Shown here: positions 4,105 to 21,800 of the stretch, in pieces | Numbering within the stretch: position 1 is the first letter of the stretch | How the letters are laid out: each line of letters opens with the position of its first letter | Origin: a virus | Reading direction: 5' to 3' (one strand) | DNA: 25,629 nucleotides | Virus record (IMG/VR): IMGVR_UViG_3300020474_001196 | Span: 1 to 25,629 of that record | Notes under the pieces: generated by a model | Database searches by the model: none | What the model was told of the DNA's origin: nothing | The model's input: only the letters and a program-made list of their open reading frames with translations | Made by a program: the position numbers and the translations under genes

Positions 4105-4662
4105 TTATATAGCTTTCCATACTCCTCTGACAGACGGTGTAATGTGATCAAGATTTGCTGCTATACAAATTCTACTTCCTACATGATCACTAGGTACAAA
4201 ATGATCTAGTGCTGCTGGAAATGCTATGACTAATCCGTTCTCCACAGGTCTACATGTTTCTCCTATACAAATAGGTGCAGAGTCCTCTTTAACATCAACA
4301 TAATAAAGGACTGCCATAGTTGATGGGAAGTGATTATGATACTTAGTTCCTTCGTTAGGTCCGTATGTCATAGCCCACATATTAACACAATCAAATTGAC
4401 CTTTGGTGTGCCAATACTGTGTGCTGATATTAAAAACAAACTTCTCAAAGAATGTTTGAATTTCAGCGAATCTTGGATCAGTTTGATGAATGTTCCAATT
4501 AGATCTCCAATTAGCACCTACATTATTATCCTTTGTGGTTTTCTCAAATTCTTTCTTATGATCTAAGATAGATTGTTTATGTTCAGCAAGATGCTCCGTC
4601 CAACTTGTCTCGAAGACAGGAAGTTTAGCATCTACCTTTGCGATTTCTACTTTGGTGGGCAT
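4105..4662 (-). CDS. Fe(II)/2-oxoglutarate-dependent oxygenase, TIGR02466-like (tandem copy 2)
   Basis: The 185-residue protein carries HNHFPSTMAVLYYVD (residues 109-123) with H109 and H111 in the iron-binding region, FPAALDHFVPSDH (148-160) with H154 as distal histidine, and R164 in GSRICIAAN as the 2OG arginine. It is clearly related to its upstream neighbour (4647-5240), which shares the HDHF/HNHF core and the YYVDV-E-D-APIx element, so the two probably arose by tandem duplication. Its ATG lies within the last bases of that neighbour. Substrate unknown. Confidence 0.8.
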   Translation of the reverse strand: MPTKVEIAKVDAKLPVFETSWTEHLAEHKQSILDHKKEFEKTTKDNNVGANWRSNWNIHQTDPRFAEIQTFFEKFVFNISTQYWHTKGQFDCVNMWAMTYGPNEGTKYHNHFPSTMAVLYYVDVKEDSAPICIGETCRPVENGLVIAFPAALDHFVPSDHVGSRICIAANLDHITPSVRGVWKAI

Positions 4663-5240
4663 ACTTTATCAATGTTCATAGCGACTGCGATTCTCCTACC
4701 TGTAGTGGTAGGAACATGATGGACTACATTGCCTGGAAAAAGAACTAGTAATCCTGGTTCTATGTTTATCTGTTTGTCCTCAAGGAATATTGGAGCAACA
4801 TCCTCTTCAACATCAACATAATAAACACAAGACCATGATGATGTAAAATGATCATGCGGTTCAGCATGTTCACCTTCTTCCATGACTACTGCCCATAAAG
4901 ATACTACTTTAAAGTCAGCGTGTGTATGGAAAACATTGTCCATTATATAGTTTAGCACATGTAATACATAATCGGCAACTGGTTGAAACCTATCATCAGT
5001 CTCCAATGTATCCCACTTAGTCACCCAACACTTAACAGAATGACCTGCAGTTTCATGTGAGTCTATAATTTTTGGATCTTTATCTCTCTTCTCTAATATA
5101 ATTTCTTTTAAATCTGTATTAAGGTTGGGGTCTCCCCCATACACTTCAAAGGTTGATACTCTAACATCAACCTTATCATGTATTATTTTTTTAGATGTAG
5201 GTTGGTTCTCCGTCCTGTCCACCGAATGTACAGATGTCAA
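4647..5240 (-). CDS. Fe(II)/2-oxoglutarate-dependent oxygenase, TIGR02466-like (tandem copy 1)
   Basis: The 197-residue product contains PHDHFTSSWSCVYYVDVEED at residues 128-147 (H129, H131), LFPGNVVHHVP at 167-177 (H174/H175) and R183 in GRRIAVAMN: the iron and 2OG ligands of the family. The first codon is TTG at 5240, inside the end of the 1638-residue structural gene; AGGAG three bases before it supports initiation there, and a GTG at 5222 is the alternative. No ATG is available in frame near the N-terminus. The 50-bp overlap couples it to the giant tail protein, hinting that this protein or its glycans could be the substrate. Confidence 0.75.
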   Translation of the reverse strand: MTSVHSVDRTENQPTSKKIIHDKVDVRVSTFEVYGGDPNLNTDLKEIILEKRDKDPKIIDSHETAGHSVKCWVTKWDTLETDDRFQPVADYVLHVLNYIMDNVFHTHADFKVVSLWAVVMEEGEHAEPHDHFTSSWSCVYYVDVEEDVAPIFLEDKQINIEPGLLVLFPGNVVHHVPTTTGRRIAVAMNIDKVCPPK

Positions 5241-8200
5241 GTTCTCCTAAATCCTCCAACGCAGGTATCCCATTATACACTCTAACTATGAAATGATCAA
5301 CTGTTCTGTCACTGATTCTTAAATTAACAATACCACCTGGATATGCATTAGTACCAGAAGCAATTCCTATGACTGCATAGTTGGTATCTGCCATAGCATC
5401 AGCAAAGTTAACTTTGTAAACACCAGTAGCTTGTTGTTCGATAGAACTTACATTGTGTGATCTATCACCAGGTGTATAGTCACTGTTACCAACACCTAAG
5501 TTTGTATTCAAGTACCAAGAGGTAGCACGACCCTCAAACATTTGAGTGTAAGTACAAGTCTTAAGACCTGATGTATTTTTAAACTCACCAACCTTAGCAA
5601 CTCTCTGCATTTCAGGATTGAATACCTGAACAGAGTTACCCATAGAACCATACTGTGTACCAACACCTGCTCCATAGTAGAATAATTCTGGAGTTGTCTC
5701 ATCAACTGCAACTTCTGTATATGAACCAGTAAATGTAACACCCTGAGTCATTTCAGCTGGGTTAGTAGTACCTATACCAACTGAGGTAACACCAGAAGGA
5801 TGATAGTACATCCTGATTGGATAGTTAGCTTGCTGTGATGCATTCTCAAATCTATAAGTCTGACCTACCTCAAATCTTAGGTAAGGTGATTCATAACCTT
5901 GAACATTAATACACTTATCAGATCCAACACCAATGTACCTATGTTCTGAGGTCTTAGTACCGATAGTAACAGGTAATGGTTTGAATGGATTCTCATGCTC
6001 AGTGTAAAGATTCTTAGATGTATCTGCAGCACCAGTTAAGGTAGAGAAACTAGCAGCAGATGCAAAGGTAGCATTGGTTGCCTGTGATGCAAGACCTGCG
6101 AGAGTTGCATAGGTTGCAATACCAGCAACGATTGCTTCAGATGCAATACCAGCAAGAGCAGCACGAGGTGCTTCAACAATGGTAGCAGTAACAATACCAG
6201 CAGAGATAGGTGATACATCAATACCAGCATCAAAGTTAATTGTACCAGCAGTACCAACTAAAGACCCACTATCGTTAACAATAACACCACTACCAGCAGC
6301 AACAATGTTAGTTAATTCTGATCCATCACCAATGAATTTTGGTGCAGTTATATTATTAACACTTGTGATCGTAGCAGTTGATTCTAATTGAGCAGCAGTG
6401 GCAGCGTTGGTTGCATTGTCCGCAGTGGTTGCATTTGTTGCAGTGGTTGCTTGAGTAGCAATACCAGCAACATCAGCATAATTTGATTTAGCAGCAAGTG
6501 CAACAGCAACTCCATCAGCAAGACTGTTTGCAGTTTGAGCAACACCTACAGTATCTGATGCCTCTATTAGTGCAACACCATCATTAACAGTTGCAGTAAT
6601 GTTAGTTCCAAAGTTAATTGTAGCAGCAGTACCAACAATAGTACCACCATCCTCAACATTAACACCAGATCCAACAGCAGTAACGCCAGTCAATCCTGTT
6701 CCATCACCAGAGAATGCTTGAGCAGTAATGATACCAGTGGTGTTCACATTAAGGTTAGATCCTATACCAGAAGGTCCTGGATCCTGTGGAATTGAATGAG
6801 CAACAAAGGTTAAGTTAGGTTTAGAACCACGAACAATTAAACTCTGTCCATTAGAAAGAGCAAGGTTGTCTAATTGTAAATCCTGTAATGGTGCTAGTCT
6901 AAGACCGAAAGCAACATAATCTGACTCTTGGAACTCTGCTATTCCTCCAGATGATATACCAACAGATAACGCTGCAGTAATATCTGGGTTCTGGTTTGTA
7001 GCATGAATCGTAATCAAACTATCTTCTTCTGCAGTAAGAATTTGTAAGTTTGAGTTGATTGTAAATGGTGGTTTGTATGATAAAGTTAATGATTCTTTTC
7101 TACCATGTGTAGCAGCAGAAACATCACTGATCTTATCATAAATCTTAGTAGCAAATGTTAGGAAAGATATATTAGGATCGAATGATGATACAAATATCTT
7201 ATCGCCTGGTTTGATACCAACCTTCTCAATCAGTCTAGTACCACCTCTGTCTAATTGAATACCATAAGCAATGTAGTCGCTAGTTTTGAAACCAGGTGTA
7301 CTAGAGATACCAATGGAGAATGTAGATTCAAAGTCATTCTGGTTTGCAACAGCAACACTAACCTCAAGAAGATCTTCACTCTCAAATAGTAGTGTTGGTT
7401 CAACGACACCCTTAGTTAATGTAGTCTTAACAGATGCAAGACGACCCACTCTTGCTTGGAATGGATCAGGAGTTTGGAAGGATGTTACTACAGAGAATGG
7501 TGAGGTAAATGATTGTCCTTCACTACCATCAGCATTAGATACATGTCTTAATCTTACATAGAATGTAGTAGCAGCAGCTAAACCAGTATTAATAGTCTGA
7601 CTTAGTGAAGTAAGATTAGAACCAATAGAAGTATAAACAACTTGAGAGGGATCAGCAAAACTTATATCTGTACTGACTTCAAATTCAACTGCTTTAAGTG
7701 TACCAGAAACTGCCTCACCATCAATAGCAATGTAAGTACTTGATGATATTACAATACCAAATCTCTGACCTACAGTAGATGCATTTACAGGTCCAGTAAT
7801 AAATGGTGTCTGAACACCTGGTGCATTACCTAAGGTAGCAAACGATACTATACCAGCAGAGTAATTAGAATAATACTGAGTGAATGCGGTACCATCACCG
7901 TTAGATACATGTCTTACTCTTGCATAGTAAGTAGTAAATCCAGCTAGAGTTCCAGTAGTTGTCTGTTCTAATCCAACATTGTTTGTAGTTGATTGGAAAT
8001 CAATGTAACTGAAATCTACATCTTTAGATAGTTGGAATTCAACTGCCTTTAATGTACCTGATACTGTTGTTCCACCGATAGCAGTGTATTCACTTGATCG
8101 TAGTAATAATCCTTCAGTATTAACACCAGTTGCATTGTTAACAGGAGCAAGAACAGAAGGTTCGTTGATTCCTGCAAGTTCTGTAGAGATACCAGAGTTG

Positions 8201-10107
8201 ACATCAATAAAAGTAACATTAACATTACCGTTACCATCTGCAGTTCTCTGGTTGAATTGTCCTGACCAGAAGGTAGCAGTATCAATGTCAGGATGCTGAT
8301 CAAAGAATAAATCATTTCCTAAAATTTTACTACCAGATTCTGATAAAGCACTAGAGGTAGTAAAACCTGTTACCCAATTCTTTGCATCAGTTGGTGTTGC
8401 AGTTGGATTTCTTTGAGCATATAGAGCAATAAGACCAGCAACTACAGGTGCAGCAGCAGAAGTTCCACTAAATTTACAGTCAAAGAAACCACTGTTATCA
8501 AATCTTGGATAGTCTCTATAAGAAGTAACATTATGAAGACCAGGTGCTAGTGTCTCATCAGCAGGAGCATAGATGTCAATACCAGGACCACTGTTAGAGT
8601 ATGTTGCCTTTCTTTCTTTTAAATCTGATTCAATAAAGTCATCCATTGCACCAACATTAATTACTGGATGATATCCAGTAGTTGAGTTGAATCCAATACC
8701 AGATGGGTTCATCCAATCTCTAGATCCACATGGAGTTCTTGTACCACCAAACTCAGCACGAGAATCATTTGAACTAAAGTATGCGTCAGTAAGACCATCA
8801 GTTCTGTGTATATCAGTAAATCCAGCACCAATTCTTTGGTTATTATTACCTGCAGCAGAGATGTAGATGACACCTGCTGCCATCATCTCAGCACCAGCAG
8901 TATCAGAAGCATTATTTCTTGCAGATGATGTCCATGATTTATATGCACCAAGCACTTGGTTGTTGAAACCATAGATCATATCACTGACATCAACAGGATC
9001 TGAACTACTATTAACTGGCATAGTAATACTACCAGTATTGTTCTTAAACTTCCAAGATAAAGTAGCACTGTTACTAGTAGCAGCTTGATAACCCCATGAA
9101 CCATTAACAACAGTCGGAAGTTTTACTCCAAGAATAGTGTTTACTGGTTTATGTTGATGGAAAAACTTAATAAGGTCATAGGATGTTTCAATATCCATAC
9201 CAACATTATCACTGATCGCTGGCATGTTCCATATGTTTGCCTTGAATGCCATACCCATGTTCTTTCCAGCAGCCATACCAGCACATGCTGTACCGTGACC
9301 ACTAGTAAGATTGTTACCACCAGTAGTACCTACACCAACTGCTCTATCACATGTATAGTTTGAAGGGATATTAATTGTAGGTAAAAGTCCTTTAGAAGTA
9401 GATCTTGCGTTGTTATCTTCCCACCATGCAATTGCGTTTGCAGTAGAAATACCAGTGCTTCCATCCTCTCTTGTATAAACATAACCGTAAGTATTAAACC
9501 AGTCTGGGTCAATAAGATAAGGACCATCAAGAACGATATCATTTACTCTACTTGTACCATCATCATTAAGAAACTCAGGGTGAGATCTTAGAACACCAGA
9601 GTCATGTATAACTAAGTCTACATTTCTACCATCGTATGTGTAATTAGTATTAGTAGTGATCGCAGCAAGGTTACCAACATTAGAACCATATATTTCTCCT
9701 GCAGTTTGTACACCTACTCTAGGAACAGCCCAGTTAGTTCTATTTTCTTCTGCACTAGTCAATGCTCCTACTGTAGTAGGTGGATTGTTAGGTGAATCTA
9801 GATCACGATACGCTTTAACATCAGCATCCCACCTTTGTGGCATGGCAAGTTCTGGTTTTGGGAATGAGTCTGGGTTATCTTTTAAAGATAGCTCAATCCA
9901 ATTAACATATGAATGTCTTCCAATCTCAGCAGCCTCTTCATCCGTCAACTCATAGGTTCCACGAGTAGGACTACCTTTTTTTTCATCAGTACAGGTAATC
10001 TTTCTATCAGGAATTCCATCCTCGTTAGAGTCTACGGTGAGAGCACCATGAATCTTATCCCAATAATCAGCACTGGTAACAGATAATGTATATCGTTTTA
10101 AAGCCAT
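5191..10107 (-). CDS. Giant virion/tail protein with subtilisin-like (S8) protease domain
   Basis: This 1638-residue protein has an S8 peptidase domain at about residues 160-580 with all key residues: D169 (VIHDSGV), H271 (SGHGTACAG), oxyanion N421 (SAAGNNNQ) and S550 (FSGTSAAAPVVAG). There is no signal peptide, only a ~120-residue N-terminal region. Two fibronectin-III-like repeats follow (~655-760 and ~770-880), then two beta-rich repeats (~905-1100). Next come GDGTGLT/GDGSELT modules alternating with Ala/Thr-rich low-complexity stretches (~1120-1360), and a cupredoxin-like fold (~1400-1490). The last copper-site residues appear lost (YYGAGVGTQYGSM instead of a YYC...H..M pattern). The architecture fits a late structural tail or baseplate-fibre protein with an embedded protease. 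The last 50 bp overlap an oxygenase gene. Confidence 0.85.
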   Translation of the reverse strand: MALKRYTLSVTSADYWDKIHGALTVDSNEDGIPDRKITCTDEKKGSPTRGTYELTDEEAAEIGRHSYVNWIELSLKDNPDSFPKPELAMPQRWDADVKAYRDLDSPNNPPTTVGALTSAEENRTNWAVPRVGVQTAGEIYGSNVGNLAAITTNTNYTYDGRNVDLVIHDSGVLRSHPEFLNDDGTSRVNDIVLDGPYLIDPDWFNTYGYVYTREDGSTGISTANAIAWWEDNNARSTSKGLLPTINIPSNYTCDRAVGVGTTGGNNLTSGHGTACAGMAAGKNMGMAFKANIWNMPAISDNVGMDIETSYDLIKFFHQHKPVNTILGVKLPTVVNGSWGYQAATSNSATLSWKFKNNTGSITMPVNSSSDPVDVSDMIYGFNNQVLGAYKSWTSSARNNASDTAGAEMMAAGVIYISAAGNNNQRIGAGFTDIHRTDGLTDAYFSSNDSRAEFGGTRTPCGSRDWMNPSGIGFNSTTGYHPVINVGAMDDFIESDLKERKATYSNSGPGIDIYAPADETLAPGLHNVTSYRDYPRFDNSGFFDCKFSGTSAAAPVVAGLIALYAQRNPTATPTDAKNWVTGFTTSSALSESGSKILGNDLFFDQHPDIDTATFWSGQFNQRTADGNGNVNVTFIDVNSGISTELAGINEPSVLAPVNNATGVNTEGLLLRSSEYTAIGGTTVSGTLKAVEFQLSKDVDFSYIDFQSTTNNVGLEQTTTGTLAGFTTYYARVRHVSNGDGTAFTQYYSNYSAGIVSFATLGNAPGVQTPFITGPVNASTVGQRFGIVISSSTYIAIDGEAVSGTLKAVEFEVSTDISFADPSQVVYTSIGSNLTSLSQTINTGLAAATTFYVRLRHVSNADGSEGQSFTSPFSVVTSFQTPDPFQARVGRLASVKTTLTKGVVEPTLLFESEDLLEVSVAVANQNDFESTFSIGISSTPGFKTSDYIAYGIQLDRGGTRLIEKVGIKPGDKIFVSSFDPNISFLTFATKIYDKISDVSAATHGRKESLTLSYKPPFTINSNLQILTAEEDSLITIHATNQNPDITAALSVGISSGGIAEFQESDYVAFGLRLAPLQDLQLDNLALSNGQSLIVRGSKPNLTFVAHSIPQDPGPSGIGSNLNVNTTGIITAQAFSGDGTGLTGVTAVGSGVNVEDGGTIVGTAATINFGTNITATVNDGVALIEASDTVGVAQTANSLADGVAVALAAKSNYADVAGIATQATTATNATTADNATNAATAAQLESTATITSVNNITAPKFIGDGSELTNIVAAGSGVIVNDSGSLVGTAGTINFDAGIDVSPISAGIVTATIVEAPRAALAGIASEAIVAGIATYATLAGLASQATNATFASAASFSTLTGAADTSKNLYTEHENPFKPLPVTIGTKTSEHRYIGVGSDKCINVQGYESPYLRFEVGQTYRFENASQQANYPIRMYYHPSGVTSVGIGTTNPAEMTQGVTFTGSYTEVAVDETTPELFYYGAGVGTQYGSMGNSVQVFNPEMQRVAKVGEFKNTSGLKTCTYTQMFEGRATSWYLNTNLGVGNSDYTPGDRSHNVSSIEQQATGVYKVNFADAMADTNYAVIGIASGTNAYPGGIVNLRISDRTVDHFIVRVYNGIPALEDLGELDICTFGGQDGEPTYI

Positions 10108-10177: not shown

Positions 10178-10957
10178 ATGAATATCGTAACTGGTGCTGG
10201 TGGTTTTATCGGAAAACACTTTGTAAGGTCACTCGAAAATGTCCTTGAAATAGATTTAGATAATTGCGAAGAATTTATAGAGAAATTTAATAGATGGGAT
10301 GAGGTTGATATGATCATCCATCAGGGTGCTTTGTCCTCTACGACCAACAAAGACCTTGGGATGATACACAAATATAATATTGATTATAGTATTAAATTAT
10401 TTGAGAAGGCAATTGAGCATGGTATCCCTGTTAAGTATGCCAGTTCAGCATCTGTCTACGGTAATCAACAAGGCATTATAAATCCCTTGAATTACTACGC
10501 ATTATCTAAAGCAACAGTGGATTACTGGGTCTTAGATAACATTGAAAGGTTCGTACATATTCAAGGGTTCAGATACTTTAATGTATATGGATCAGGTGAA
10601 TACCATAAAGGAACTATGGCAAGTTTGGTCTCTCAGTTTCAGTGGCAGTCTGCCACAGGTCAGGTGCATCCCTTTGAGGGGAGCGATCAGATACATCGTG
10701 ATTATGTGTGGGTTGGGGATCTTGTAAATGTTGTGTTATCGAACACTGCAGGTTCGGGCATATACGATCTTGGCACAGGGTCGCCAACAGCAATTGGCAC
10801 TGTAGCTCAATTAGTTTCACTAAAAACTGGGTGCCAATCGACTCAAATACCATTTCCGCCTCCTCTTAAGGGTAAGTATCAATATTATACCATAGCTGAC
10901 ATGAAATGGTTAAAAGATTACAAATTTAAAACAGTTAAAGAGTATCTCCAGGTATAA
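10178..10957 (+). CDS. hldD: ADP-L-glycero-D-manno-heptose-6-epimerase-like protein
   Basis: From the ATG at 10178 the protein has 259 residues. It starts MNIVTGAGGFIGKHFV with the Rossmann GxxGxxG motif and has the HldD-typical HQGALSSTT (48-56), a YASSASVYG active-site strand (87-95), Y107/K111 as the YxxxK pair, and FRYFNVYGSGEYHKGTMASL (131-150). PFPPPLKGKYQYYTIAD near the C-terminus is also family-typical. HldD converts ADP-D-glycero- to ADP-L-glycero-beta-D-manno-heptose. It is shorter than the ~310-residue bacterial enzyme. A frame opening at 10106 adds 24 unrelated residues. It is the only plus-strand gene, transcribed from an extended -10 promoter and converging with the cupin gene (23-bp tail overlap). 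Strong family call. Confidence 0.88.
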   Translation: MNIVTGAGGFIGKHFVRSLENVLEIDLDNCEEFIEKFNRWDEVDMIIHQGALSSTTNKDLGMIHKYNIDYSIKLFEKAIEHGIPVKYASSASVYGNQQGIINPLNYYALSKATVDYWVLDNIERFVHIQGFRYFNVYGSGEYHKGTMASLVSQFQWQSATGQVHPFEGSDQIHRDYVWVGDLVNVVLSNTAGSGIYDLGTGSPTAIGTVAQLVSLKTGCQSTQIPFPPPLKGKYQYYTIADMKWLKDYKFKTVKEYLQV

Positions 10958-11309
10958 CTCTGTTTGAATCGGAGTCAAAATGTTGTGTAGAAAATTCAAA
11001 TAGTTCTGCGTCTTCTATTGCTACCATCTGATGTCTAGTCTCTCTACAACAATGGAAACTATCACCTGGTTCTAATATCATTGTCTTCGCATCCTCTAAA
11101 TTATCCGTCTTACCATAGAATAAATGAATCTTACCCGACTGTAAATAAAAAGTCTCATCCTTCAGTATATGATAATGCCATGAGCATCTGTGGTTCTTCT
11201 TAATAAACAGTAACTTTCCACAATACTCAGGTGAGTTGGCAATCCATTTCTCCCAACCCCATCCTTTTGGTACAAATTTTGGTTTAGTTTCCTTCAAAAT
11301 AATCCTCAC
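10935..11309 (-). CDS. Cupin-fold protein, sugar-phosphate-isomerase-like
   Basis: The 124-residue protein contains KGWGWEKWI (16-24), then a cupin core: CSWHYHILKDETFYLQSGKI carries motif 1 (His, His and Glu metal ligands), and ILEPGDSFHCCRETRHQMVA carries motif 2. It resembles the cupin part of type II mannose-6-phosphate isomerases and small cupins that sit beside HAD phosphatases in polysaccharide loci. The likely role is sugar-phosphate isomerisation or binding; it could conceivably substitute for the missing GmhA isomerase step, but this is speculative. The first codon appears to be GTG (11309), overlapping the HAD gene's end; a TTG four codons later has a better Shine-Dalgarno spacing. 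Confidence 0.7.
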   Translation of the reverse strand: MRIILKETKPKFVPKGWGWEKWIANSPEYCGKLLFIKKNHRCSWHYHILKDETFYLQSGKIHLFYGKTDNLEDAKTMILEPGDSFHCCRETRHQMVAIEDAELFEFSTQHFDSDSNRVIPGDTL

Positions 11310-11631
11310 TATTCATTGCTTTATCATCTATAAAGATGTCAGCATGTGGTTTACCCATAATCAATTCATGATACTTACATCCCCACATCTTTAATTGTGC
11401 TTCAGTAAGAGGTTTGAATAGATCTTCTGCCTTTTTCTTTGCCTCATCATATGGTAAAGCACTAGACCTTCCCATAGCACGAGCAGTAAAGTATATTATA
11501 TAGTGACCCTCATCATACAAATTATTAAGTTTATCTATTCTACTTTGCATAGGTGTAGAACCCTCATACCTACAATTTCCACATGAACCAGGCGTACATA
11601 TAGTACTATCAATATCAACGCAATATCTCAT
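11284..11631 (-). CDS. HAD-superfamily phosphatase of a polysaccharide locus (GmhB-like role possible)
   Basis: The 115-residue product starts MRYCVDIDSTICTPG, giving the HAD nucleophile motif DxD (D6, D8). YFTARAMG (~47-54) supplies motif II threonine, and KPHADIFIDDKAMN near the C-terminus supplies the motif III lysine and motif IV aspartates. A CGNCR segment after motif I is unusual. GGAGG six bases before the ATG at 11631 favours that start over the ATG at 11637. Similar small HAD proteins accompany sugar nucleotidyltransferases in capsule loci. In this neighbourhood it is the best candidate for removing the 7-phosphate of heptose-1,7-bisphosphate, the step done by GmhB in bacteria; the substrate is inferred from context. 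Confidence 0.75.
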   Translation of the reverse strand: MRYCVDIDSTICTPGSCGNCRYEGSTPMQSRIDKLNNLYDEGHYIIYFTARAMGRSSALPYDEAKKKAEDLFKPLTEAQLKMWGCKYHELIMGKPHADIFIDDKAMNSEDYFEGN

Positions 11632-12397
11632 CAACATCCTCCATTGTTAGTGTGTATGTACCAGGATTCTCAACTGCTATTGCTGCTGCCTTATTAGCAA
11701 AAGCAATAGACTCATCCATAGAATCTAATTGTATATAATAGAAGACTAATGCTGCTAAAAATGTATCACCTGCACCAGTCACATCAAATGTTCTAACAAT
11801 AGGTACTGGGAATTGTTTCTTGTTCCATAGAGCACCATTAGCACCCATAGTAACTATACAATTACTAGAGTTAGGAATATGATCAGATCGTAATGCTTCA
11901 AATTCTTTCTGATTAATTTTGTATACTATATTTCCTCTTCTTGGAGGTGTAGTTGACTTAGTATCAATAAAAACTTTTATATTTGGATTCTTCCTTGCTA
12001 AATCATGAATCAAATCAAGGTTAACAAATCCTTTATTGTAATCTGATACAACTATGGCATCATATTGTTGATGCATTGCTGCGATCATAATTTGATGTTG
12101 TTGTATTTGTGTTACATCTGGTTCAGTATCAAGACGCATGATCTGTTGATTAGATTTCTGATCTACATACCTAGTCTTTGTTATCTTTTCTTTGTTTGTT
12201 ATGAAATTTACATTAATACCAAGAGATTTTAAATTTTCATTGACATTTGCTGCCATACCAGGTGCACTTTGCTTCTCCTGATATTTCATGACAGGGATAG
12301 GTCCCTCTGGACTTAAACGATCACAAGATCCGTACACCCATTCATCGGTGCAACTATCCCCTATCAATAATACATTGTATTGTCTTGCTAGTCGCAT
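11615..12397 (-). CDS. hldE: HldE/RfaE N-terminal-domain-like heptose 7-phosphate kinase (PfkB family)
   Basis: From the ATG at 12397 (AGGA nine bases upstream; a TTG at 12415 is the alternative) the protein has 260 residues. It contains RLSPEGPIPVM and PGMAANVNENL, equivalent to the substrate-binding motifs of RfaE. KTRYVDQKSNQQIMRLD, then VVSDYNKGFV and the PfkB signature DVTGAGDTFLAA follow (~205-216, catalytic base D211). It should phosphorylate D-glycero-D-manno-heptose 7-phosphate at C1. In most bacteria this domain is fused to the adenylyltransferase in one ~475-residue HldE protein; here it is separate and downstream of the adenylyltransferase gene, which it overlaps by 44 bp. Confidence 0.85.
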   Translation of the reverse strand: MRLARQYNVLLIGDSCTDEWVYGSCDRLSPEGPIPVMKYQEKQSAPGMAANVNENLKSLGINVNFITNKEKITKTRYVDQKSNQQIMRLDTEPDVTQIQQHQIMIAAMHQQYDAIVVSDYNKGFVNLDLIHDLARKNPNIKVFIDTKSTTPPRRGNIVYKINQKEFEALRSDHIPNSSNCIVTMGANGALWNKKQFPVPIVRTFDVTGAGDTFLAALVFYYIQLDSMDESIAFANKAAAIAVENPGTYTLTMEDVDEILR

Positions 12398-12785
12398 ACT
12401 TTTCAATCCTATCAAAGAATATTAATTTGCCAGCACTGTGTTTACCAATGACTGACTTACCTTTCCAATCGGAACCAACCATCATTATATCAGGTCTGAC
12501 ATCTTTTATCAATGCTTCAAGAGATTCATCACTACTAAAGTAACTTACTTCATCAACTGCTGACAAAGCAATGAGCATTAATCCTCTGTCTTCCTGATTA
12601 TATATCGGACGATTACTTCCCTTTTTTTCTTTCACTCTGTCATCAGTATCAATACCAACAACAACATAATCTCCTAGAGATTTAGCATGGTTTAGTAGTG
12701 CTATATGACCAGGATGTAAGAGATCAAAGGTTCCATTAACAAAAACTTTGACCCACTTTTTTTCATGTATAAATGTTTTACTCAT
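12354..12785 (-). CDS. hldE: HldE/RfaE C-terminal-domain-like heptose-1-phosphate adenylyltransferase
   Basis: The 143-residue protein carries VFVNGTFDLLHPGHIALLNH (residues 14-33) with the HxGH nucleotidyltransferase signature (H24-P-G-H27), then GIDTDDRVKEKKG, a PDIMMVGSDWKGKSV segment (98-112) and TSKTIQCI (132-139) replacing the usual STT-x-I motif. This is the cytidylyltransferase-fold domain that joins ATP to D-beta-D-heptose 1-phosphate to give ADP-heptose. It stands alone instead of being fused to the kinase. The ATG overlaps the stop of the upstream oxygenase gene by four bases, so the carbamoyltransferase, oxygenase, adenylyltransferase and kinase genes form one coupled operon. A different NDP-glycerol or sugar substrate cannot be excluded. 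Confidence 0.85.
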   Translation of the reverse strand: MSKTFIHEKKWVKVFVNGTFDLLHPGHIALLNHAKSLGDYVVVGIDTDDRVKEKKGSNRPIYNQEDRGLMLIALSAVDEVSYFSSDESLEALIKDVRPDIMMVGSDWKGKSVIGKHSAGKLIFFDRIEKYATSKTIQCIIDRG

Positions 12786-13414
12786 AGTCCTAGATTATAA
12801 TTGACAATACATCTAGTATTACTCTTTGTAGGTTGCTCTGCTGTGTGGTAGAGATGACCATCAAATATAACTATTCTACCTTGTTTTGGTGTGACTCTTT
12901 GATTGATGGTATATTTTTCTGATTTTATTTGTTCATTGTATATAACTGTATCGCCATCACTATCACAAACATAGTAAAGTGCAACTACAAATTTGTTATT
13001 ACCATGAATATCTATGTGTGGTTTGTCAATAGTTCCATCTGTGTTTATTGGAAATTGTAAAAAAGAACGACCTTGAAGAACTGTTGCCTGATTTAATCCA
13101 AGTTTACGAACAACTGTTTCAAGTAAAGGAACAAATAATTCATGGTATTCACTTATTATATGTCCTCCTAAAACATTAGAGTTGATAGTTCCAGTTTTTA
13201 AATCTCTTTCATCTTCATAAGGTAAGTCAACATATACATGAGAAAGTCCTGGTCTATGCTGACTATCACTATCACCAGATGCTGTAACATCGTCGAGATA
13301 ATACCAAGGAAACTGTTCCATGTCAGGTCTTTCCTCACCAAATAGAATAGTTTTAATTTTTTCTTGGTATTCTAAATCAATAAAATCATCAATGACCATT
13401 ACATTATTTGTCAT
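12782..13414 (-). CDS. Prolyl-4-hydroxylase-like Fe(II)/2OG oxygenase
   Basis: The 210-residue protein has the HxD...H...R set in the expected spacing: H133-I-D135 in DKPHIDIHG, H190 in FDGHLYHTAEQ and R201 in NTRCIVNYN. VVALYYVCDSDGDTVIYNE between them is the typical beta-helix core. The N-terminal half starts VMVIDDFIDLEYQEKIKTIL, a standard entry to this fold. It is a different subfamily from the TIGR02466-like oxygenases of the window. Lying between the carbamoyltransferase and adenylyltransferase genes (11-bp and 4-bp overlaps), it may hydroxylate a sugar intermediate or an acceptor, but the substrate is not visible. Confidence 0.8.
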   Translation of the reverse strand: MTNNVMVIDDFIDLEYQEKIKTILFGEERPDMEQFPWYYLDDVTASGDSDSQHRPGLSHVYVDLPYEDERDLKTGTINSNVLGGHIISEYHELFVPLLETVVRKLGLNQATVLQGRSFLQFPINTDGTIDKPHIDIHGNNKFVVALYYVCDSDGDTVIYNEQIKSEKYTINQRVTPKQGRIVIFDGHLYHTAEQPTKSNTRCIVNYNLGL

Positions 13415-15224
13415 TCTTAATAGTAATTAGTTTACCATACTCAGGTAAGTAAAGATATTCAATGTCACTATTGGCAATGGTTTTAACAGCATCTTCTAAT
13501 GTTTCAACTAAAGGTTCACCACCTAAATTGAAAGAAGTATTGAACAGGATAGGACAACCAGTTTGTTTATAAAACTCACTAATTAATTCATGATAATTTT
13601 TATTTTGTTCTTCTGTTACAGTTTGAATTCTACATGTATTATCTACATGAATAATAGCAGGAATCTTTTCTTCAACACCTGGTTTACACTCAACAGCATA
13701 CATCATAAATGGAGTCTCATCCATACCACGAAGGTCAAACCAATCATGTACATGTTCCTTTAGAATAGTACCTGCAAATGGTCTAAAGTATTCACGATGC
13801 TTAACAGTATTAACAAAGTCTTTACCTTCGGGATCACGAGGATCATATAATATAGAACGATTACCAAGAGCACGAGGACCAGACTCCGACTTACCTTGGA
13901 ACATTGCTACAATATTTTCAGAGGTAATCAACTTAATTATATCTTCATGATTAGCATAATTAACAATGCCATCATACTTATCACTAACCTCTATAATATC
14001 ATCTAAAGAATAATTATATTGAGGACCAAGATATAATGTGTTTATCTGAGGTTTAAGTGCATCTTCAACTTGAAATGGTTGTAATGTCTTATAGTAAATA
14101 TATAATGCTGCTCCAATAGCAGTACCAGCATCATTACTAACTGGTTCTACAAATAAATTAATACCTTCATCTTTTAACTGTTCAAGATACCAGTAGTTCG
14201 CAACACAATTCAATCCATATCCACCAGACAATACTATATTCTTTTTACCAGTCATCTCAACTGCCTTACGAATAAGTTTTAAGACTGCTGCTTGTGTCTC
14301 AGTTTGTACTGCATATGCTAAGTCTCTTCTGTTCTGATACTTAGTTAGATCTGATTTAGGATCATCAGGATCTGGATGATCATCAAGGAAAGGATACTCA
14401 TGTACATTAACATGTCCTGCATTTGGATAGGTAGGTATCATTACATTCCTATCTACCGTACCAAATTTCTTAAAGATCTTGGGTACTTCTGGATTAGGTT
14501 TACCGTATGGAAATAGACCCATAGTTTTACCTGCCTCAATAGCATGCCATCCACAATACTGTGTAACTGCCTCGTATGCTTTCACAATACCACAAGTCTC
14601 GTCAAGTAGATACTCAAAGGTTCCTTTCTCAGTAGGGTAAACTTCCTTTGCTTCCATGTCAGGAATGGTTGCTGTAGTAGCAGGTCCTCTAGTACCTAGA
14701 TGTTTCCACACAGTATTAATTTCTTTAGGATAAGTACAATCAAATATAGATTCAACTTCCCATACTGTCTCCTGTCTATCCATGATAGAGAAGTCAATAA
14801 ATGTACCTGCACCATCAACTACTAACGCTGCTGCTTCAGTAAATCCAGAACGATAGAATGCACACGCAGCATGTAACTTATGGTGTATATTTCCTAAGTC
14901 TATAACTTGTGAATGTCCTTTCTTTGGATCTTGACCAGAATTATCATCGATCAATCCCATCTTCCTTGCAAGACCTACATAGGCAGATTCAAAAGAATAT
15001 TCTAATACAGGAGCATCTTTTGCTGCCATCTGAGTGTGAGCAATGACGAGATAGTCTAGTTTATCAGTATACTCTTTGATTAGCATCATAGATGCAAGAG
15101 GAGCACCATCATACTTGCGACGAGAAATTCTCTCCTCTTCTACAGCAAATACAATTTCACCATCTTTAAGAAGACAGACACCTCCGTTGTGTCCTCTTGC
15201 TATGCCAGCAATCCACTGTGTCAT
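13404..15224 (-). CDS. NodU/CmcH-family O-carbamoyltransferase
   Basis: The 606-residue protein matches the family's full length. GHNGGVCLLKDGEIVFAVEE (11-30) and the following ERISRRKYDG form the N-terminal ASKHA-like motif. HHKLHAACAFY (114-124) supplies the conserved histidines, and VVDGAG (135-140) a conserved aspartate. SGGYGLNCVANY (333-344), EPVSNDAGTAIGAALY (360-375) and SESGPRALGNRSIL (446-459) follow, and the C-terminal carbamoylation domain has LFNTSFNLGGEPLV (560-573). Family members transfer a carbamoyl group from carbamoyl phosphate to a hydroxyl of a sugar or antibiotic via carbamoyl-AMP. Its neighbours point to an O-carbamoylated sugar. The start ATG overlaps the preceding GT9-like gene by four bases. 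Confidence 0.9.
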   Translation of the reverse strand: MTQWIAGIARGHNGGVCLLKDGEIVFAVEEERISRRKYDGAPLASMMLIKEYTDKLDYLVIAHTQMAAKDAPVLEYSFESAYVGLARKMGLIDDNSGQDPKKGHSQVIDLGNIHHKLHAACAFYRSGFTEAAALVVDGAGTFIDFSIMDRQETVWEVESIFDCTYPKEINTVWKHLGTRGPATTATIPDMEAKEVYPTEKGTFEYLLDETCGIVKAYEAVTQYCGWHAIEAGKTMGLFPYGKPNPEVPKIFKKFGTVDRNVMIPTYPNAGHVNVHEYPFLDDHPDPDDPKSDLTKYQNRRDLAYAVQTETQAAVLKLIRKAVEMTGKKNIVLSGGYGLNCVANYWYLEQLKDEGINLFVEPVSNDAGTAIGAALYIYYKTLQPFQVEDALKPQINTLYLGPQYNYSLDDIIEVSDKYDGIVNYANHEDIIKLITSENIVAMFQGKSESGPRALGNRSILYDPRDPEGKDFVNTVKHREYFRPFAGTILKEHVHDWFDLRGMDETPFMMYAVECKPGVEEKIPAIIHVDNTCRIQTVTEEQNKNYHELISEFYKQTGCPILFNTSFNLGGEPLVETLEDAVKTIANSDIEYLYLPEYGKLITIKNDK

Positions 15225-16198
15225 TTACCGAACCCCTTAGTTTCTGCTTGTACAACTTTTTTCTTGACAGATTTGCCAAGTCTATCTCTACACGATTTAA
15301 TTACTGCAGAGATATCTTTCTCAGTCATAGACATACACTCATCATTTTGTATGTCTTGATAATCTTCCATAGTTAATCTGATAGGAGAAAAAGTTCTTCT
15401 ATCTTCACCTAGATCTATTATATCAAATTTTGAATCATCTGGATAGGATATATTAATTGGATATGTTGATCCAATCACAGCAGTAACTGTACTACCAACT
15501 GCCTTAGCAATATGTTGACCAACAGAATCACATCCTAAGAAATGATCTGCTCTGTCTATAATACTTGCCCAGATACGAATGTCTTCTATGTTAGGAACAA
15601 TATATGCATCCTTAGATTCTCCCTCTTCTGTCTGGAATGGGAACTCAGACATTACAATCACACAATAATCTTTCTTTAAATTATTAATGATGGTGCTAAT
15701 ATCTGATAGATTAAAACTACGAGAGGTAGGGTCAAACATATACCCACCAGTATCCATGATACCTCTACCAAACGGTTGGATAACTATAACTTTTTCTTTT
15801 CCTGTAGTGCTTATTGCTTCATCAACCAACTGCATTCCTTGAATACCCTCACCTTTTGCCAAGGTAATATTGGGTGCTGGTAATTCTCTAGGTTCTTCTA
15901 AACCATTAATTTCTATATCAAATGCTTGAGCAAGACTACACTTCTGATTATAATAATGCCACTGTCTATATGGTTCTGGTGTTACACAATCTCTATCTTT
16001 AATCTTATCTTCAAACAATCCTTTATGCCAATTATCATAGGCATACTTATGTAATATTGAATGCCCTCTGTAGAAATTCATACCACCTTCACAGACGATT
16101 ATAAAATCGTCATGAGTTTCGGCATATTTTTCCAGTGCAGGGATGGAAGCAACTACTCTACCTGCTCCACCATTAATAAAGAATACTTTAGATCTCAT
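15221..16198 (-). CDS. GT9/heptosyltransferase-like glycosyltransferase
   Basis: The 325-residue protein starts MRSKVFFINGGAGRVVASIP, an N-terminal Rossmann strand and Gly-rich loop like that of GT-B family 9 enzymes, and has VIVIQPFGRG (137-146) opening the second domain. The donor-binding signature is HFLGCDSVGQHIAKAVGSTV (219-238) followed by AVIGSTYP, matching the D-S/G-x-x-x-H-x-A-x-A-x-G pattern of ADP-heptose:LPS heptosyltransferases. It would transfer heptose from the ADP-heptose made by the neighbouring genes; acceptor unknown. Similarity outside the motif is modest, so another sugar is possible. It heads the block coupled by overlaps through to the cupin gene. Confidence 0.7.
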   Translation of the reverse strand: MRSKVFFINGGAGRVVASIPALEKYAETHDDFIIVCEGGMNFYRGHSILHKYAYDNWHKGLFEDKIKDRDCVTPEPYRQWHYYNQKCSLAQAFDIEINGLEEPRELPAPNITLAKGEGIQGMQLVDEAISTTGKEKVIVIQPFGRGIMDTGGYMFDPTSRSFNLSDISTIINNLKKDYCVIVMSEFPFQTEEGESKDAYIVPNIEDIRIWASIIDRADHFLGCDSVGQHIAKAVGSTVTAVIGSTYPINISYPDDSKFDIIDLGEDRRTFSPIRLTMEDYQDIQNDECMSMTEKDISAVIKSCRDRLGKSVKKKVVQAETKGFGK

Positions 16199-16223: not shown

Positions 16224-17048
16224 TCATAAAAAAACAACCTGATTTATACGGTCATACCCATCCTTAAACATGGTGGGATCAGCGTTTGGGGAGTGTAATA
16301 CATCAGATTCATACATTATCATTCTATTATACACCATTTCAAACTCATGTTCAACCTTCCATACTCCATCGTATCCTCCACGCATCCATTTATGAATATA
16401 ATCCCATACCCTATCCTGATCCATCCCAACCAACTCATCAAAATTTTCTGGTTTATCAATATAATCCATAACATTATAAGGCAATGTCATTTGTCCTTTG
16501 TAAGAATACAAATTAGTACCACCATGACACTCATCAGGGTAATTTAAAAAGATAACTATACCAAATCTATTATAATCAAAAGTTGATTGAGTACATTGTC
16601 CAACTATACCACGAGTAACACCATGCTCATCTGTATACCCACCACTATCATCTTGATATGGTTGAGAGTATGCATCTTGATGAGGTAAACTTAAAAAAGG
16701 ATTTGCATTGAGAGAATTAGAATTCATTACATTACATAAGAACCCTGCGTTATCCCAGTGAGCTTCATACATTTGATAAGTCATTCTATGTTTCCATAGA
16801 CTCTCATCATAACAATACTTATCAAATAATTCTTTAGTATTTTTTTTAAATTCTGTTGTCTCTATATAACATCTCTCACCTGGAAGACCTTGAATTAATT
16901 CATTTCTTCTCCACTTCTCTGCTTGTACTGCTAGTTCTTTTAGTTCACTAGGATTATCATAAAAATTATCTACGACCAATGCAGTCCTCTTATCAGGACC
17001 AATATTTCTAATTACTTTTTCTTTACGATTAGAGTTCAGTTCAAACAT
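16224..17048 (-). CDS. DUF6445-like putative Fe(II)/2OG oxygenase
   Basis: The 274-residue protein begins with a polar stretch and then ALVVDNFYDNPSELKELAVQ (23-42) and LPGERCYI (55-62), the opening seen in DUF6445-like proteins. LSLPHQDAYSQ supplies a probable HxD pair (H123, D125), GGTNLYSY (176-183) lies in the core, YESDVLHSPN supplies H252, and R267 in GYDRINQVVFL would bind 2-oxoglutarate. It is thus likely to be an oxygenase although the DUF is uncharacterised. Its leader (17046-17093) is shared with the gene at 1954-2121 and includes AGGAT eight bases before the ATG. It separates the structural block from the glycan cassette. Confidence 0.7.
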   Translation of the reverse strand: MFELNSNRKEKVIRNIGPDKRTALVVDNFYDNPSELKELAVQAEKWRRNELIQGLPGERCYIETTEFKKNTKELFDKYCYDESLWKHRMTYQMYEAHWDNAGFLCNVMNSNSLNANPFLSLPHQDAYSQPYQDDSGGYTDEHGVTRGIVGQCTQSTFDYNRFGIVIFLNYPDECHGGTNLYSYKGQMTLPYNVMDYIDKPENFDELVGMDQDRVWDYIHKWMRGGYDGVWKVEHEFEMVYNRMIMYESDVLHSPNADPTMFKDGYDRINQVVFL

Positions 17049-17131: not shown

Positions 17132-17902
17132 TTAAGGATCTATATCCTCTGCTGCTTTAGATGTACCACCACTCCAGAAATCACTAGTGTCTGCAGCATC
17201 TCCACTATTAGCAATATCATCTGGTTCATGTGGCCATACAATTCTAAATGTTTCTGTACCTATACCTGCCCAAGTTGTAGGAAGGTCTCTTAATTTCTGA
17301 CGGTAATCTTTCCAAGGTGAACTAAAACTAGTAGGAGCATCATTAGGAATCTTATCATCAGATTGTTTTAAAAGAGAGTCTCTAGTTGCTCTTACCCATT
17401 CCCAACCAAATGTATGTGAATCAGCAGCAGTAGTTCCTTCGCTGTGTGTATTGTTCCACTCTGTAGCATCACTAGAGAAGACAGGATCTCTTGGCCACTT
17501 ACTATTAGTATGATCATACTCTAATGAAAGCATATCAAACACTTCTTGGAAGTGAAGATAGTCATTAAGAATAGGATTAGGTTCTGAGTCAGGACCTGAA
17601 GGAGTTTCTATCTGATAAGGACCTTCAATACCACCATAACATGCGATAGCATTCATTGGATACAAATCAGCATCTAAAGTAACTATCTTAGCATCTGCTG
17701 GAGCATCTCTAGTCTCTGTTCCAGTTTCAAATGCATGCATTTGATGCCAGTCAGGTGATGCATCTGATCCTTTATTCTCGTACCAGAATGTTATATTCTG
17801 AGGTCCGACATAAGTACAGATTCCTGTCCTTGTTGTGTCTTGTGCCTGTCCCATCCATACTGTAGGAACAGGAAATAATACTGTTTTAGTAATGTTTGCC
17901 AT
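17132..17902 (-). CDS. Virion/tail protein with C-terminal tail-assembly-chaperone-like domain
   Basis: The 256-residue protein starts MANITKTVLFPVPTVWMGQA and has a beta-rich N-terminal half (ITFWYENKG, KIVTLDADLYP) without a known fold. A central acidic region includes LNDYLHFQEVFDMLSLEYDH. Residues ~168-212 read WVRATRDSLLKQSDD, a spacer, and WKDYRQKLRDLPTTW, matching the pattern R..R..LL..SD......W..YRQ.LRDLP of phage tail fibre assembly proteins (Phage_tail_APC-like), followed by FRIVWPHEP. It is preceded by a perfect TATAAATA late promoter and follows the Cys-rich adhesin gene. Together they suggest a fibre-tip assembly factor or a minor structural protein. Confidence 0.65.
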   Translation of the reverse strand: MANITKTVLFPVPTVWMGQAQDTTRTGICTYVGPQNITFWYENKGSDASPDWHQMHAFETGTETRDAPADAKIVTLDADLYPMNAIACYGGIEGPYQIETPSGPDSEPNPILNDYLHFQEVFDMLSLEYDHTNSKWPRDPVFSSDATEWNNTHSEGTTAADSHTFGWEWVRATRDSLLKQSDDKIPNDAPTSFSSPWKDYRQKLRDLPTTWAGIGTETFRIVWPHEPDDIANSGDAADTSDFWSGGTSKAAEDIDP

Positions 17903-17933: not shown

Positions 17934-17941
17934 TATTTATA
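17934..17941 (-). promoter_or_regulatory. T4-type late promoter TATAAATA
   Basis: An exact TATAAATA octamer on the minus strand lies 32 bp before the ATG at 17902, in a 40-bp gap between two structural genes. A GAGG Shine-Dalgarno-like stretch lies between box and start. Confidence 0.7.
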
Positions 17942-18891: not shown

Positions 18892-21800
18892 TTAGATGGT
18901 AATGATTCTCCATCCTTGTGTGCCATCATAGAACACAAGTTCAAATGCAGCACCCTCAGTATTAACTGTTAGGTCAGCAGCGTCACCCATGATTGGGTTA
19001 CCGTTTCTACCAATTGTTAGTGCGTTTGAATCAAATGATTTGGTAACATCGAAGAATCTAATGCTATCACCTTTGATTGGTGAGGAAGGTAGAGTAACAG
19101 TGAATCCACCACCTGTTGTGTTACAGAAGATTTGCTGTTTGTTAGAGGCAGTAACTCCAGAAGTAGCATCGACATTCTGATATGCACCTACAGGTAACCA
19201 GTTTGAACCGTTGTAGTATTCATAACTGTTTGTATCAGTATCGTAGCGAAGTCCACCATTAAGTAGTGCGTTACCAGTAGGTCTTCCTGCTTGAGAACCT
19301 CTAGGTGGAACTAAGATTCCTGATGTGGAATCCATCTTACCTCTTGTTAAGAATCCACGAACTGCTTTCTCTGTAGGACATGCTTGGTTAGAATCACCAG
19401 ACATAAGTTCATCAGAGGAGAATTCGTTAATCGCTTCACCAATCTGTCCACCGATAGCACCCAGTCTTAGTTCTGTCAAACCAGATAAGTTGAAAGCGGA
19501 AGCATCCAAGGTAGCAGCACCAGTTAACTGGTTAACAGAGAAGTATTCTCCAACTCTGAAGTTACCTCCTTGGTCAGTTGATACGAAGAAGATCTTACCA
19601 GAGTTAGTTACATTAGTTTCATTACCCTGTGATGCTGTATTCTCATCAGTGTTAGGATAGTTTGTTTGTGCAGTGTTACCTGTACCAATCAATAGGAAGT
19701 CATGACCAGTAAGTCTTAGTTTAGAGAACTTACTTCTCATTGCAAACTCTTGATTGTCGAATGACTTAGGAGCAGATCCCTTACCAGGTGCCACATTAAT
19801 TGTTGCACGACCATTCGCTTGCTGAACAGCATTAGTTGCTGCACTTACAAATGTATGAGCACTTGTATTTGTAGAAGGAATATTTTCTAGTGACTGGAAG
19901 GAGAATGTATTAACAGTCGTTGCAGATAGAGCAACTAATGTTCTATGTAATGGGTCAGCTTTACCAGCGTTAACACCTGTACCTGTAGCACGAGGATAAG
20001 TCTTCTGAGCAACACCACCATCTAGAGAACAAGTAAATGTTAATGAGTTAGGTGTTAGTTGAATCTTATCTCCAACCATCATACCGTGATTATTAGATGT
20101 CAACTGTACGATACCTGTTGATGGGTTATAGGAACCTGCACTTGGAGTGTAGTTATTACCAGCAACATAGTTTGTTATAGCTCTTAAGATGTAAGTATTA
20201 GTATCAGAGAATCCCATACCAACAGTAGTGAATCCTAAAGCATCACCAACAATAGGTGTTGTCGAGAGTCCAGTAACCTCAAAGAGGATATCTGCCTGTC
20301 CATTTGCTGCATTAGAACCAGTACCCATTCTAAAGTATCCAGTAGCACCAGCACCAACAGAGTCAACCTCAACATATTCGCCAGGAGTGAAGACTGTTGT
20401 ACCAATACCAACCGCAGGGTTAATATCAGCAGCGTCTAAGAATGTGTTACCAAATCCAACGAAGTACTTGAAGTAAATTGCATCTGATGCAGACTGATCG
20501 TTAGTTAATTCAGCACGAGCACCTGAGACAGTACCACGCATTGTTGCACCAACAGCAAGAGTTCCAACATAAGTTCCAACAACAGTTGTCATCTTATCAC
20601 CGAACATCCTACCGAATCTAGGAGTCTCTAGTGTAGAGAATCCACATGCAATAGCACCGTAAGTACCATAAGAGTTGTTACCTGATAGAGATCTAATTTC
20701 TGATCCATCATCAGATACATATCCGAATGCACAATAGTATGTGAAGGAAGATACAATCTCAGCGAGAGCATCATCTTCTAGGAAGAATCCTACACCACCC
20801 GAATGAATATTCGTAAAGGCATCGAACACCATCGATTTACCACCAGCACCTTCAGGTGCTAAGTTGTGGACACCACCCTCAATAAAGATACCAATAGCAC
20901 CTTGATGTCCTGTACCATCAAGACAAACATCAGAGAATGCAGTACAGTCTTTAATGTATGGTGAACGGTTTAGAATAGGATCGGTTGGGTTTAATCTGAA
21001 GTATACACCACATGCAGTAGTACCTACACCAGTCTTAATTTGCCACTTATCAGTCTCGAAAGGATCGTTAACATCATAATCAAATCCCTGCAAACCACGC
21101 ATTGTGATTGCCTGAACTGTAGTAGAGTCAGACACAAAGAACATAGTCTGACGAGCGTTAGGAATAACACCCTCAGTTGATATGCCAGGAGCAGGTTGAA
21201 TTGTTGAACCTCTTAGAACATCACCAGCAATTGAGAAGTTCTTAGGTAGAGTAATTGGTAACTCTTCAGAGAATACACCAGCAGATAGTTTGATAATAAC
21301 AGGTGAAGAGTCAGTAACAGTACCACCACTTACATATGTGTGTGCGATAGTTGAGATACTGACATTGGTTACGAAAGTATCAGAGTCAGTTACACTGTCA
21401 ACTTTAAAGTAGAACCCTTGTGTACCATCTGGGAAAATCGTAGTTGTTAAACCAGAGAAACCAGGAGCACAAGTGAATGCTATACCAGAAAGTCTGATGT
21501 CACCTCTTGGGAATAGACCGTGGTTAGCAGCAGTAACAGTTGCAATACCAGAAGTATTATCATAAACAAAGTTAGTAATGTTAGATACTTTCTGTGCTGC
21601 AGTAGATGCGTAGGAAATATTCTGCCATGCATCGTCAGGAGTTAGACCAGAGTTATCGTTTGAACCTTGCTGTGCGTCAATGAAATATATTTTTGTTCTT
21701 TGTCCAGCATACTGCCATTCAACTTCATCAGTACTTGATACTCTTAAGAATGTACCTTGAGTACCAATACCCTGTCTTGAAGGACCAGTACCATCTCTAG

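Follow-up and report, generated by a model that had tools for sequence, protein, structure and literature searches.

A conserved, putative carbamoyl-heptose gene cassette of T4-like cyanophages with a cupin as its probable isomerase

In bacteria, ADP-L,D-heptose is made by GmhA, HldE, GmhB and HldD, and GmhA is the sole enzyme named for the first committed step in the literature surveyed. Related genes occur in cyanophages within a block noted in that literature as 'LPS genes' (lipopolysaccharide, LPS). Sullivan et al. (2010) found that T4-GC 304, 305, 307 and 308, annotated in P-SSM2 as nucleotidyltransferase, kinase, cupin and epimerase, are found together in P-SSM2, S-SM2 and S-SSM7, left their function open and considered filler possible; heptose LPS genes, one of them a 'phosphoheptose isomerase', are also named in the announcement of SynMITS9220M01. 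According to the summary in PMC11461863, Tang et al. (2024) described working nucleoside diphosphate (NDP)-heptose enzymes encoded by viruses; that summary reports no viral phosphatase and makes no mention of a cupin. Carbamoylation of manno-heptose is known from Pseudomonas LPS, in which heptose II carries the group; the responsible enzyme, WapO, acts on the cellular LPS core and is likened here by chemistry. The present analysis, computational throughout, concerns such a block in a 25,629-base viral sequence from IMG/VR (IMGVR_UViG_3300020474_001196, hereafter the window). The cassette itself is not new, having already been described in cyanophages; what is new is the assignment of its first step to the cupin, a proposal with good comparative support.

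A first-pass annotation of the window had placed eight contiguous cassette genes at 10178-16198 between two tail-protein regions, and both the genes and their setting were recovered as described. Seven of the eight form a tight minus-strand operon with overlapping ends, running from 16198 down to 10935, toward which the gene for an HldD-like epimerase converges. One flank consists of a tail assembly chaperone, a Gly-rich protein and a fibre protein bearing a CBM5/12 module, and the other of a 1638-amino-acid subtilase-domain protein with tail-fibre-like segments. The block of P-SSM2, S-CAM1, S-CAM3, S-SSM7 and Sf-FS3 (T4-GC 302-308) has the same genes in the same tail-gene setting and mostly the same order, with approximately 65-75% DNA identity to the window over parts of the cassette; the window differs in having a 2-oxoglutarate (2OG) oxygenase gene between the nucleotidyltransferase and carbamoyltransferase genes. 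In P-SSM2 and S-CAM3 the block adjoins tail genes and has the same convergent epimerase, and in Sf-FS3 extra genes are inserted. The same run of genes was found again in scores of viral contigs, placing the arrangement far beyond chance; the cassette is real and conserved in cyanomyoviruses.

Viral loci were fetched with the profile of the cassette's glycosyltransferase (GT), and so were not selected for heptose genes, although some overlap on one contig. The kinase could be seen whole in 19 of them, and all 19 had the cupin, the carbamoyltransferase and an epimerase, while 18 had the HAD protein and 18 the nucleotidyltransferase. Loci typically begin with fibre and tail chaperone, followed by DUF6445, GT and carbamoyltransferase; after an optional gene for a 2OG oxygenase or a second carbamoyltransferase-like protein come nucleotidyltransferase, kinase, HAD and cupin, then the convergent epimerase and, in many loci, a subtilase protein, while some contigs hold just the nucleotidyltransferase-kinase-HAD-cupin core within the stretch covered. 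The DUF6445 gene, which lay outside the range first annotated, is part of the conserved block. As a full explanation of these observations, a carbamoyl-heptose cassette with a cupin isomerase appears the best available, with a probability of roughly 0.74.

The isomerase step had initially been left without a candidate, and the cupin without a role. Profile searches found no GmhA among the cassette proteins and no SIS_2 (GmhA) protein in the three complete genomes P-SSM2, Sf-FS3 and S-CAM3, and a tblastn search of the phage collection with E. coli GmhA returned 13 records, none of them cyanophage. The cupin accompanied the kinase in 31 of 31 cyanophage or marine records, lists which were matched by eye and in which several records are near-copies. 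The vacancy in the pathway is therefore probably only apparent: judging by its distribution, its fusions, a slot swap and its predicted structure, the cupin is likely the isomerase, and probably a non-homologous sedoheptulose-7-phosphate isomerase replacing GmhA in these phages and some bacteria.

A search with the cupin profile yielded a few cellular contigs, including a Parcubacteria contig (L175) with the order GT9, cupin, HldE kinase, an unrelated opposite-strand gene, fused nucleotidyltransferase-GmhB and HldD, the GmhB part of which scored above its curated cut-off, in a genome with no GmhA match. An initial survey of 380 Patescibacteria genomes found 17 with an HldE kinase, 11 of which had a strong GmhA and six a cupin beside or fused to the kinase; in addition to its cupin, G306 from this group of six carries a weaker SIS protein at another site (1e-25). 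The second survey covered the class of G171, as the order of G002 had only seven genomes, and among its 353 genomes were 20 new HldE-positive ones. Seven of these have a cupin in the open frame of the kinase and, short GlmS-like matches apart, no GmhA; 11 have a strong GmhA, G402 has a weak SIS protein close by, and G407 has neither enzyme. Together with G002, G004 and G386 this gave 40 HldE-positive genomes, with a cupin in 15, a strong GmhA in 22, both in none and neither in three. These figures depend on thresholds set after the first survey, a strong GmhA being defined by E<1e-40, and a cupin being taken as heptose-type from its clade, its signature or its linkage to HldE. In three GmhA genomes (G222, G649 and G650) a cupin with a lower score is encoded at another place, and G386 has one of 63 bits; these four were counted as phosphomannose isomerase (PMI)-type, because the cupin of G222 adjoins the mannose-1-phosphate guanylyltransferase gene manC and matches the PMI domain. 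The control genome of Synechococcus elongatus had an HldE-kinase-type match at E<=1e-40 and was not listed for TIGR00441 (GmhA).

Within the 15 cupin genomes, the cupin is fused to the kinase in 11 and adjacent to it in two. The single open frame runs cupin-then-kinase in G171, G193, G306 and the seven genomes of the second survey, and kinase-then-cupin in G223; the kinase part of the G171 fusion exceeds the curated HldE-kinase cut-off. Because the fused cases are defined in part by linkage, cupin-kinase adjacency is not an independent test, whereas the absence of GmhA from genomes with the fusion is one. In G129 it is GmhA, not a cupin, that is fused to the kinase, and in the pair G015/G037, with flanks 60-82% identical, the slot between an RmlD-like gene and the kinase is occupied by the cupin in one genome and by GmhA in the other. 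Across genomes, the proposed heptose cupin is thus linked to HldE and complementary to GmhA.

The next-closest Patescibacteria cupins adjoin ManC, the motif of which is present in 11 of the 15 loci L192-L206, and a sister cupin (L227) matches the PMI domain of TIGR01479. Phage and HldE-linked cupins are split from these PMI-type cupins by a branch with 100/99 support in a short alignment of 119 columns, in which the single row labelled PMI on the heptose side (L220) duplicates a heptose-type sequence (L187); by this tree the window cupin falls outside the ManC-linked (type II PMI) clade. Compared with the type II PMI cupins (TIGR01479 C-terminal domain, PF01050), which form the sister clade beside ManC and to whose ketose/aldose reaction the proposed one is analogous, the phage-type cupins have YCGK and EFST..DS.R..GD signatures and are linked to HldE instead of ManC. 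The conversion of sedoheptulose-7-phosphate to manno-heptose-7-phosphate is the seven-carbon counterpart of that of fructose-6-phosphate to mannose-6-phosphate. Residues H45, H47, K50, E52 and H93 are invariant in the cupin alignments. The cupin model (pLDDT 95) had D-lyxose isomerases as its top five PDB matches, including complexes with D-mannose and D-fructose, with oxalate decarboxylase, quercetinase and other general cupins close behind. D-lyxose/D-mannose isomerases (2y0o, 7nzo) are the closest solved folds and have the metal site in common; the profile alignment with 2y0o shares YC-K, C..H.H, K.ETF and GK. Identity is nonetheless approximately 22%, the known enzymes use free sugars, and, although all ten members scanned matched PF07385 (D-lyxose isomerase; best 3e-4), the window cupin scored 18.3 against a gathering score of 20.8. 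There was little support for a cysteine dioxygenase, the label given in PHROGs, as the nearest folds are sugar isomerases and cysteine dioxygenase is far down the list. No precedent for a cupin heptose isomerase was found in the open-access literature searched.

The families first read from motifs were borne out by profile search for the epimerase, kinase, nucleotidyltransferase, HAD protein, cupin, 2OG oxygenase and carbamoyltransferase (Table 1), and families, catalytic motifs, a heptosyltransferase fold and co-conservation agree on heptose synthesis and carbamoylation. The epimerase scored 189 bits against a curated cut-off of 275, retains the catalytic Y..K and the K of HKG, and has relatives in which both motifs are kept; the kinase and nucleotidyltransferase matches also lie under their curated cut-offs, and the latter enzyme has an intact HPGH motif and an altered (F/L)XXGXSTT motif. 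Both Pfam domains of the carbamoyltransferase are above their gathering scores (PF02543, 94.7 bits, 1e-26; PF16861, 206.8 bits), and the protein matches the carbamoyltransferases 7xb6 (7e-58) and TobZ (2e-46) in PDB; the cupin matches PF07883 at 6e-7. The assignment of the transferase to GT9 was marginal by sequence (PF01075, 13.7 bits against a gathering score of 22, E 0.04; heptosyltransferase III model, 8e-5), and a PDB profile search with its alignment gave nothing useful, the GT9 link coming from the fold alone. Its AlphaFold2 model (pLDDT 86) has a clear GT-B fold of GT9 type: the top Foldseek matches were GT9 structures with TM-scores of 0.46-0.61, among them GT9 3tov (2e-9), E. coli WaaF, the protein heptosyltransferase TibC with ADP-D,D-heptose, and WaaC. 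The 2OG oxygenase is missing from many related cassettes. A defence role was considered and set aside, PADLOC giving just a generic 2OG match.

Table 1. Cassette genes and adjoining features in the window, with proposed functions and their basis.
Feature	Coordinates	Strand	Basis
HldD-like ADP-glyceromanno-heptose 6-epimerase	10178..10957	+	TIGR02197 E=1e-55; YxxxK and HKG motifs
Cupin, proposed sedoheptulose-7-phosphate isomerase in place of GmhA	10935..11309	-	Distribution, fusions, slot swap, model
HAD-family protein, EcbF/BcbF-like; proposed heptose-bisphosphate 7-phosphatase	11284..11637	-	TIGR01689, PDB 9iqw, HAD motifs
HldE-type heptose-7-phosphate kinase (PfkB)	11615..12415	-	TIGR02198 6e-43, PF00294 1e-17, GAGDTF motif
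HldE-type heptose-1-phosphate nucleotidyltransferase, nucleotide uncertain	12354..12785	-	TIGR02199 1e-32, HPGH motif
2OG-Fe(II) oxygenase, accessory	12782..13414	-	PF13640 3e-6; optional in relatives
NodU/TobZ-type O-carbamoyltransferase	13404..15224	-	PF16861 2e-61; PDB 7xb6, TobZ
GT9-fold heptosyltransferase (predicted)	15221..16198	-	AlphaFold2 and Foldseek
DUF6445 protein (2OG-oxygenase-like), conserved GT neighbour	16224..17048	-	PF20043 6e-12; adjoins GT in most loci
Tail assembly chaperone (Phage_tail_APC), flank	17132..17902	-	PF16778 2e-11

The HAD protein, first taken for a phosphatase of the pathway, belongs to the HAD family and is plausible in that role, but is not GmhB by sequence, as profile and PDB searches place it weakly with EcbF/BcbF (TIGR01689, 5e-6) and a 'capsule biosynthesis protein' (9iqw, 2e-9). 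Its annotation as 'phosphoheptose isomerase' in P-SSM2 and other relatives is ruled out by its HAD motifs and its matches to HAD proteins. A GmhB-type gene is found in just a few phage variants, including L153 and L163, which have no HAD gene and instead combine a GmhB-like gene (in L163, 1e-39 to the GmhB model, under its cut-off) with a bifunctional HldE and a divergent cupin. These two variants, together with the position of the HAD gene, make it a plausible 7-phosphatase. In PHROGs, the labels of phrog_1238, phrog_7851 and phrog_274 look wrong or too narrow, the HAD protein being called 'phosphoheptose isomerase', the cupin 'cysteine dioxygenase' and the 2OG oxygenase 'DNA endonuclease V'.

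Starting from sedoheptulose-7-phosphate, an intermediate of the Calvin cycle, the cassette would produce an L,D-manno-heptose in nucleotide-activated form, to be transferred and carbamoylated. The cupin would isomerise sedoheptulose-7-phosphate to D-glycero-D-manno-heptose-7-phosphate; the PfkB kinase, by family, would form the 1,7-bisphosphate, from which the HAD protein, by its position, may take off the 7-phosphate; and the nucleotidyltransferase, again by family, would yield an NDP-heptose, most likely ADP-heptose, though the nucleotide is less sure. The HldD-like epimerase would then invert C6, the GT9-fold enzyme would pass the heptose to an acceptor, and the NodU/TobZ-type enzyme would carbamoylate the sugar, with family assignment the basis for the epimerase and carbamoyltransferase and fold for the transferase. 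The accessory 2OG oxygenase may, speculatively, hydroxylate the acceptor or the sugar. With the cupin as isomerase, every pathway step has a candidate. Relative to the bacterial pathway, HldD-like, HldE-kinase-like and HldE-nucleotidyltransferase-like enzymes are common to both, whereas the phage has a split HldE, no GmhA, an HAD protein of another subfamily for GmhB and an added cupin.

A number of observations weigh against this interpretation. None of the NCBIfam equivalog matches of the window proteins reaches the curated cut-off, so that the enzymes are to be regarded as relatives, not certified equivalogs, and the kinase and epimerase are shorter than their cellular homologues. The HAD protein is no homologue of GmhB, and the exchange of one for the other is weakened by the cassettes L026 (6210-6896) and L029 (4489-5163), which hold both a GmhB-like gene and the usual HAD. 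In the Patescibacteria, the cupins of G002 and G004 are unlinked to the kinase, neither enzyme passed the thresholds in three HldE-positive genomes, many genomes are incomplete, and the chance of zero overlap, 2e-8 if genomes are independent, overstates that independence because the genomes are related. One phage contig, L067 (7852-13425), breaks the mutual exclusion, having the cupin near a weak GmhA-like SIS protein (1.5e-9). This contig, the presence of HldE with neither gene found in G407 and G386, and the many activities of cupins, with quercetinase and oxalate decarboxylase also matching the profile, would suit a cupin that is a later sugar-modifying or regulatory protein, the phages using the host isomerase and the cupin-bearing Patescibacteria one as yet unrecognised. 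Such an arrangement is considered unlikely, however, given the complementary distribution, the fusion to HldE, the exact slot replacement and the aldose-ketose isomerases that are the nearest relatives of the cupin. Less likely again is that HldE-like folds serve to make another activated sugar or polyol, e.g. a CDP- or GDP-linked hexose or heptose: the sub-threshold equivalog matches, the altered STT motif and the resemblance of the nucleotidyltransferase to glycerol-3-phosphate cytidylyltransferase (3e-20) would allow it, but the ADP-heptose family is the best match for three enzymes, for the epimerase by many orders of magnitude, the GT has a heptosyltransferase fold, and L153 and L163 carry the bifunctional HldE and GmhB-like gene. 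Carbamoylated cytosine is known in phage DNA, and a role in base hypermodification instead of glycan synthesis was weighed; none of the window proteins searched was recognisable as a base-modifying enzyme. That the genes are filler DNA for headful packaging, as Sullivan et al. raised for cyanophage LPS genes, is at odds with intact motifs and a gene order stable over approximately 50% protein divergence, which indicate selection, and both of these ideas are very improbable.

The cassette as a carbamoyl-heptose pathway with a cupin isomerase leaves two kinds of acceptor to be compared. With the same chemistry, the host surface (LPS or capsule) instead of the virion could receive the sugar late in infection, which would block superinfection or the loss of progeny on debris, a possibility to be taken seriously if not the one expected. 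GT9 enzymes are mostly LPS core transferases, WaaF and WaaC are among the fold matches, the cyanophage literature files these as LPS genes, and carbamoyl-heptose is an LPS feature in Pseudomonas. Conversely, TibC is an equally good fold match, and the cassette is constantly placed between fibre, chaperone and virion genes. The first-pass statement that picocyanobacterial LPS lacks heptose holds for marine Synechococcus WH8102 and CC9311, the LPS of which has, according to a review, neither heptose nor 3-deoxy-D-manno-octulosonic acid (KDO); the Synechococcus LPS core studied offers no heptose acceptor. The late-promoter-like NATAAATA was found upstream of the chaperone in 32/49 cases, the fibre gene in 36/74 and the GT in 20/109 (6.2 expected), but never upstream of the inner cassette genes, counts that involve mono-nucleotide shuffles, approximate start sites and overlapping contigs counted more than once. 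ATAAATA, which occurs at 17934-17940 upstream of the tail assembly chaperone gene, is not enriched over the window as a whole, the informative measure being the position-specific count over relatives, in which the GT signal is weak. This pattern fits late read-through expression without naming the acceptor. Motifs of late type ahead of the neighbouring genes, with a weak signal for the GT, suit a virion substrate. The tail-gene neighbourhood mildly favours a virion protein, and we infer, at about even odds, that a tail or fibre protein is somewhat more likely than host LPS.

Several other features of the window and its relatives were observed. The subtilase (Peptidase_S8) domain of the 1638-amino-acid protein (5191-10107) is in its N-terminal part, and one of the tail fibre genes of P-SSM2 likewise encodes a PF00082 protein. 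The fibre protein at 18892-22905 has its CBM5/12 carbohydrate-binding module near the start (PF02839, 1e-16). Besides the DUF6445 gene there are five 2OG-Fe(II) oxygenase genes in 25 kb (77-721, 4105-4662, 4647-5240, 12782-13414 and 24258-24824), most of these six near tail genes, and a second epimerase-family gene (2168-2935), lacking the HldD-type HKG motif, adjoins a DUF6433 gene. Cassette genes were also present on contigs labelled as Planctomycetaceae, Euryarchaeota and Rhodobacteraceae metagenome-assembled genomes (L165, L166, L167, L171 and L176), the gene content of which suggests phage contigs binned into marine assemblies.

Taken at its broadest, and here only tentatively and at somewhat less than even odds, the cupin may found a new, non-homologous sedoheptulose-7-phosphate isomerase family of cyanophages and Patescibacteria, related to PMI and often fused to HldE, with the phage placing carbamoyl-heptose on its own tail proteins while its hosts have LPS without heptose. 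If the assignment is true, the cupin would be a non-homologous replacement that closes the pathway in phages and in a set of Patescibacteria which look isomerase-less, and database labels would be corrected for the HAD protein ('phosphoheptose isomerase') and the cupin ('cysteine dioxygenase' or 'nucleotidyltransferase'). It would also open to testing the question of why T4-like cyanophages retain the genes for a sugar that the host LPS examined to date does not contain.

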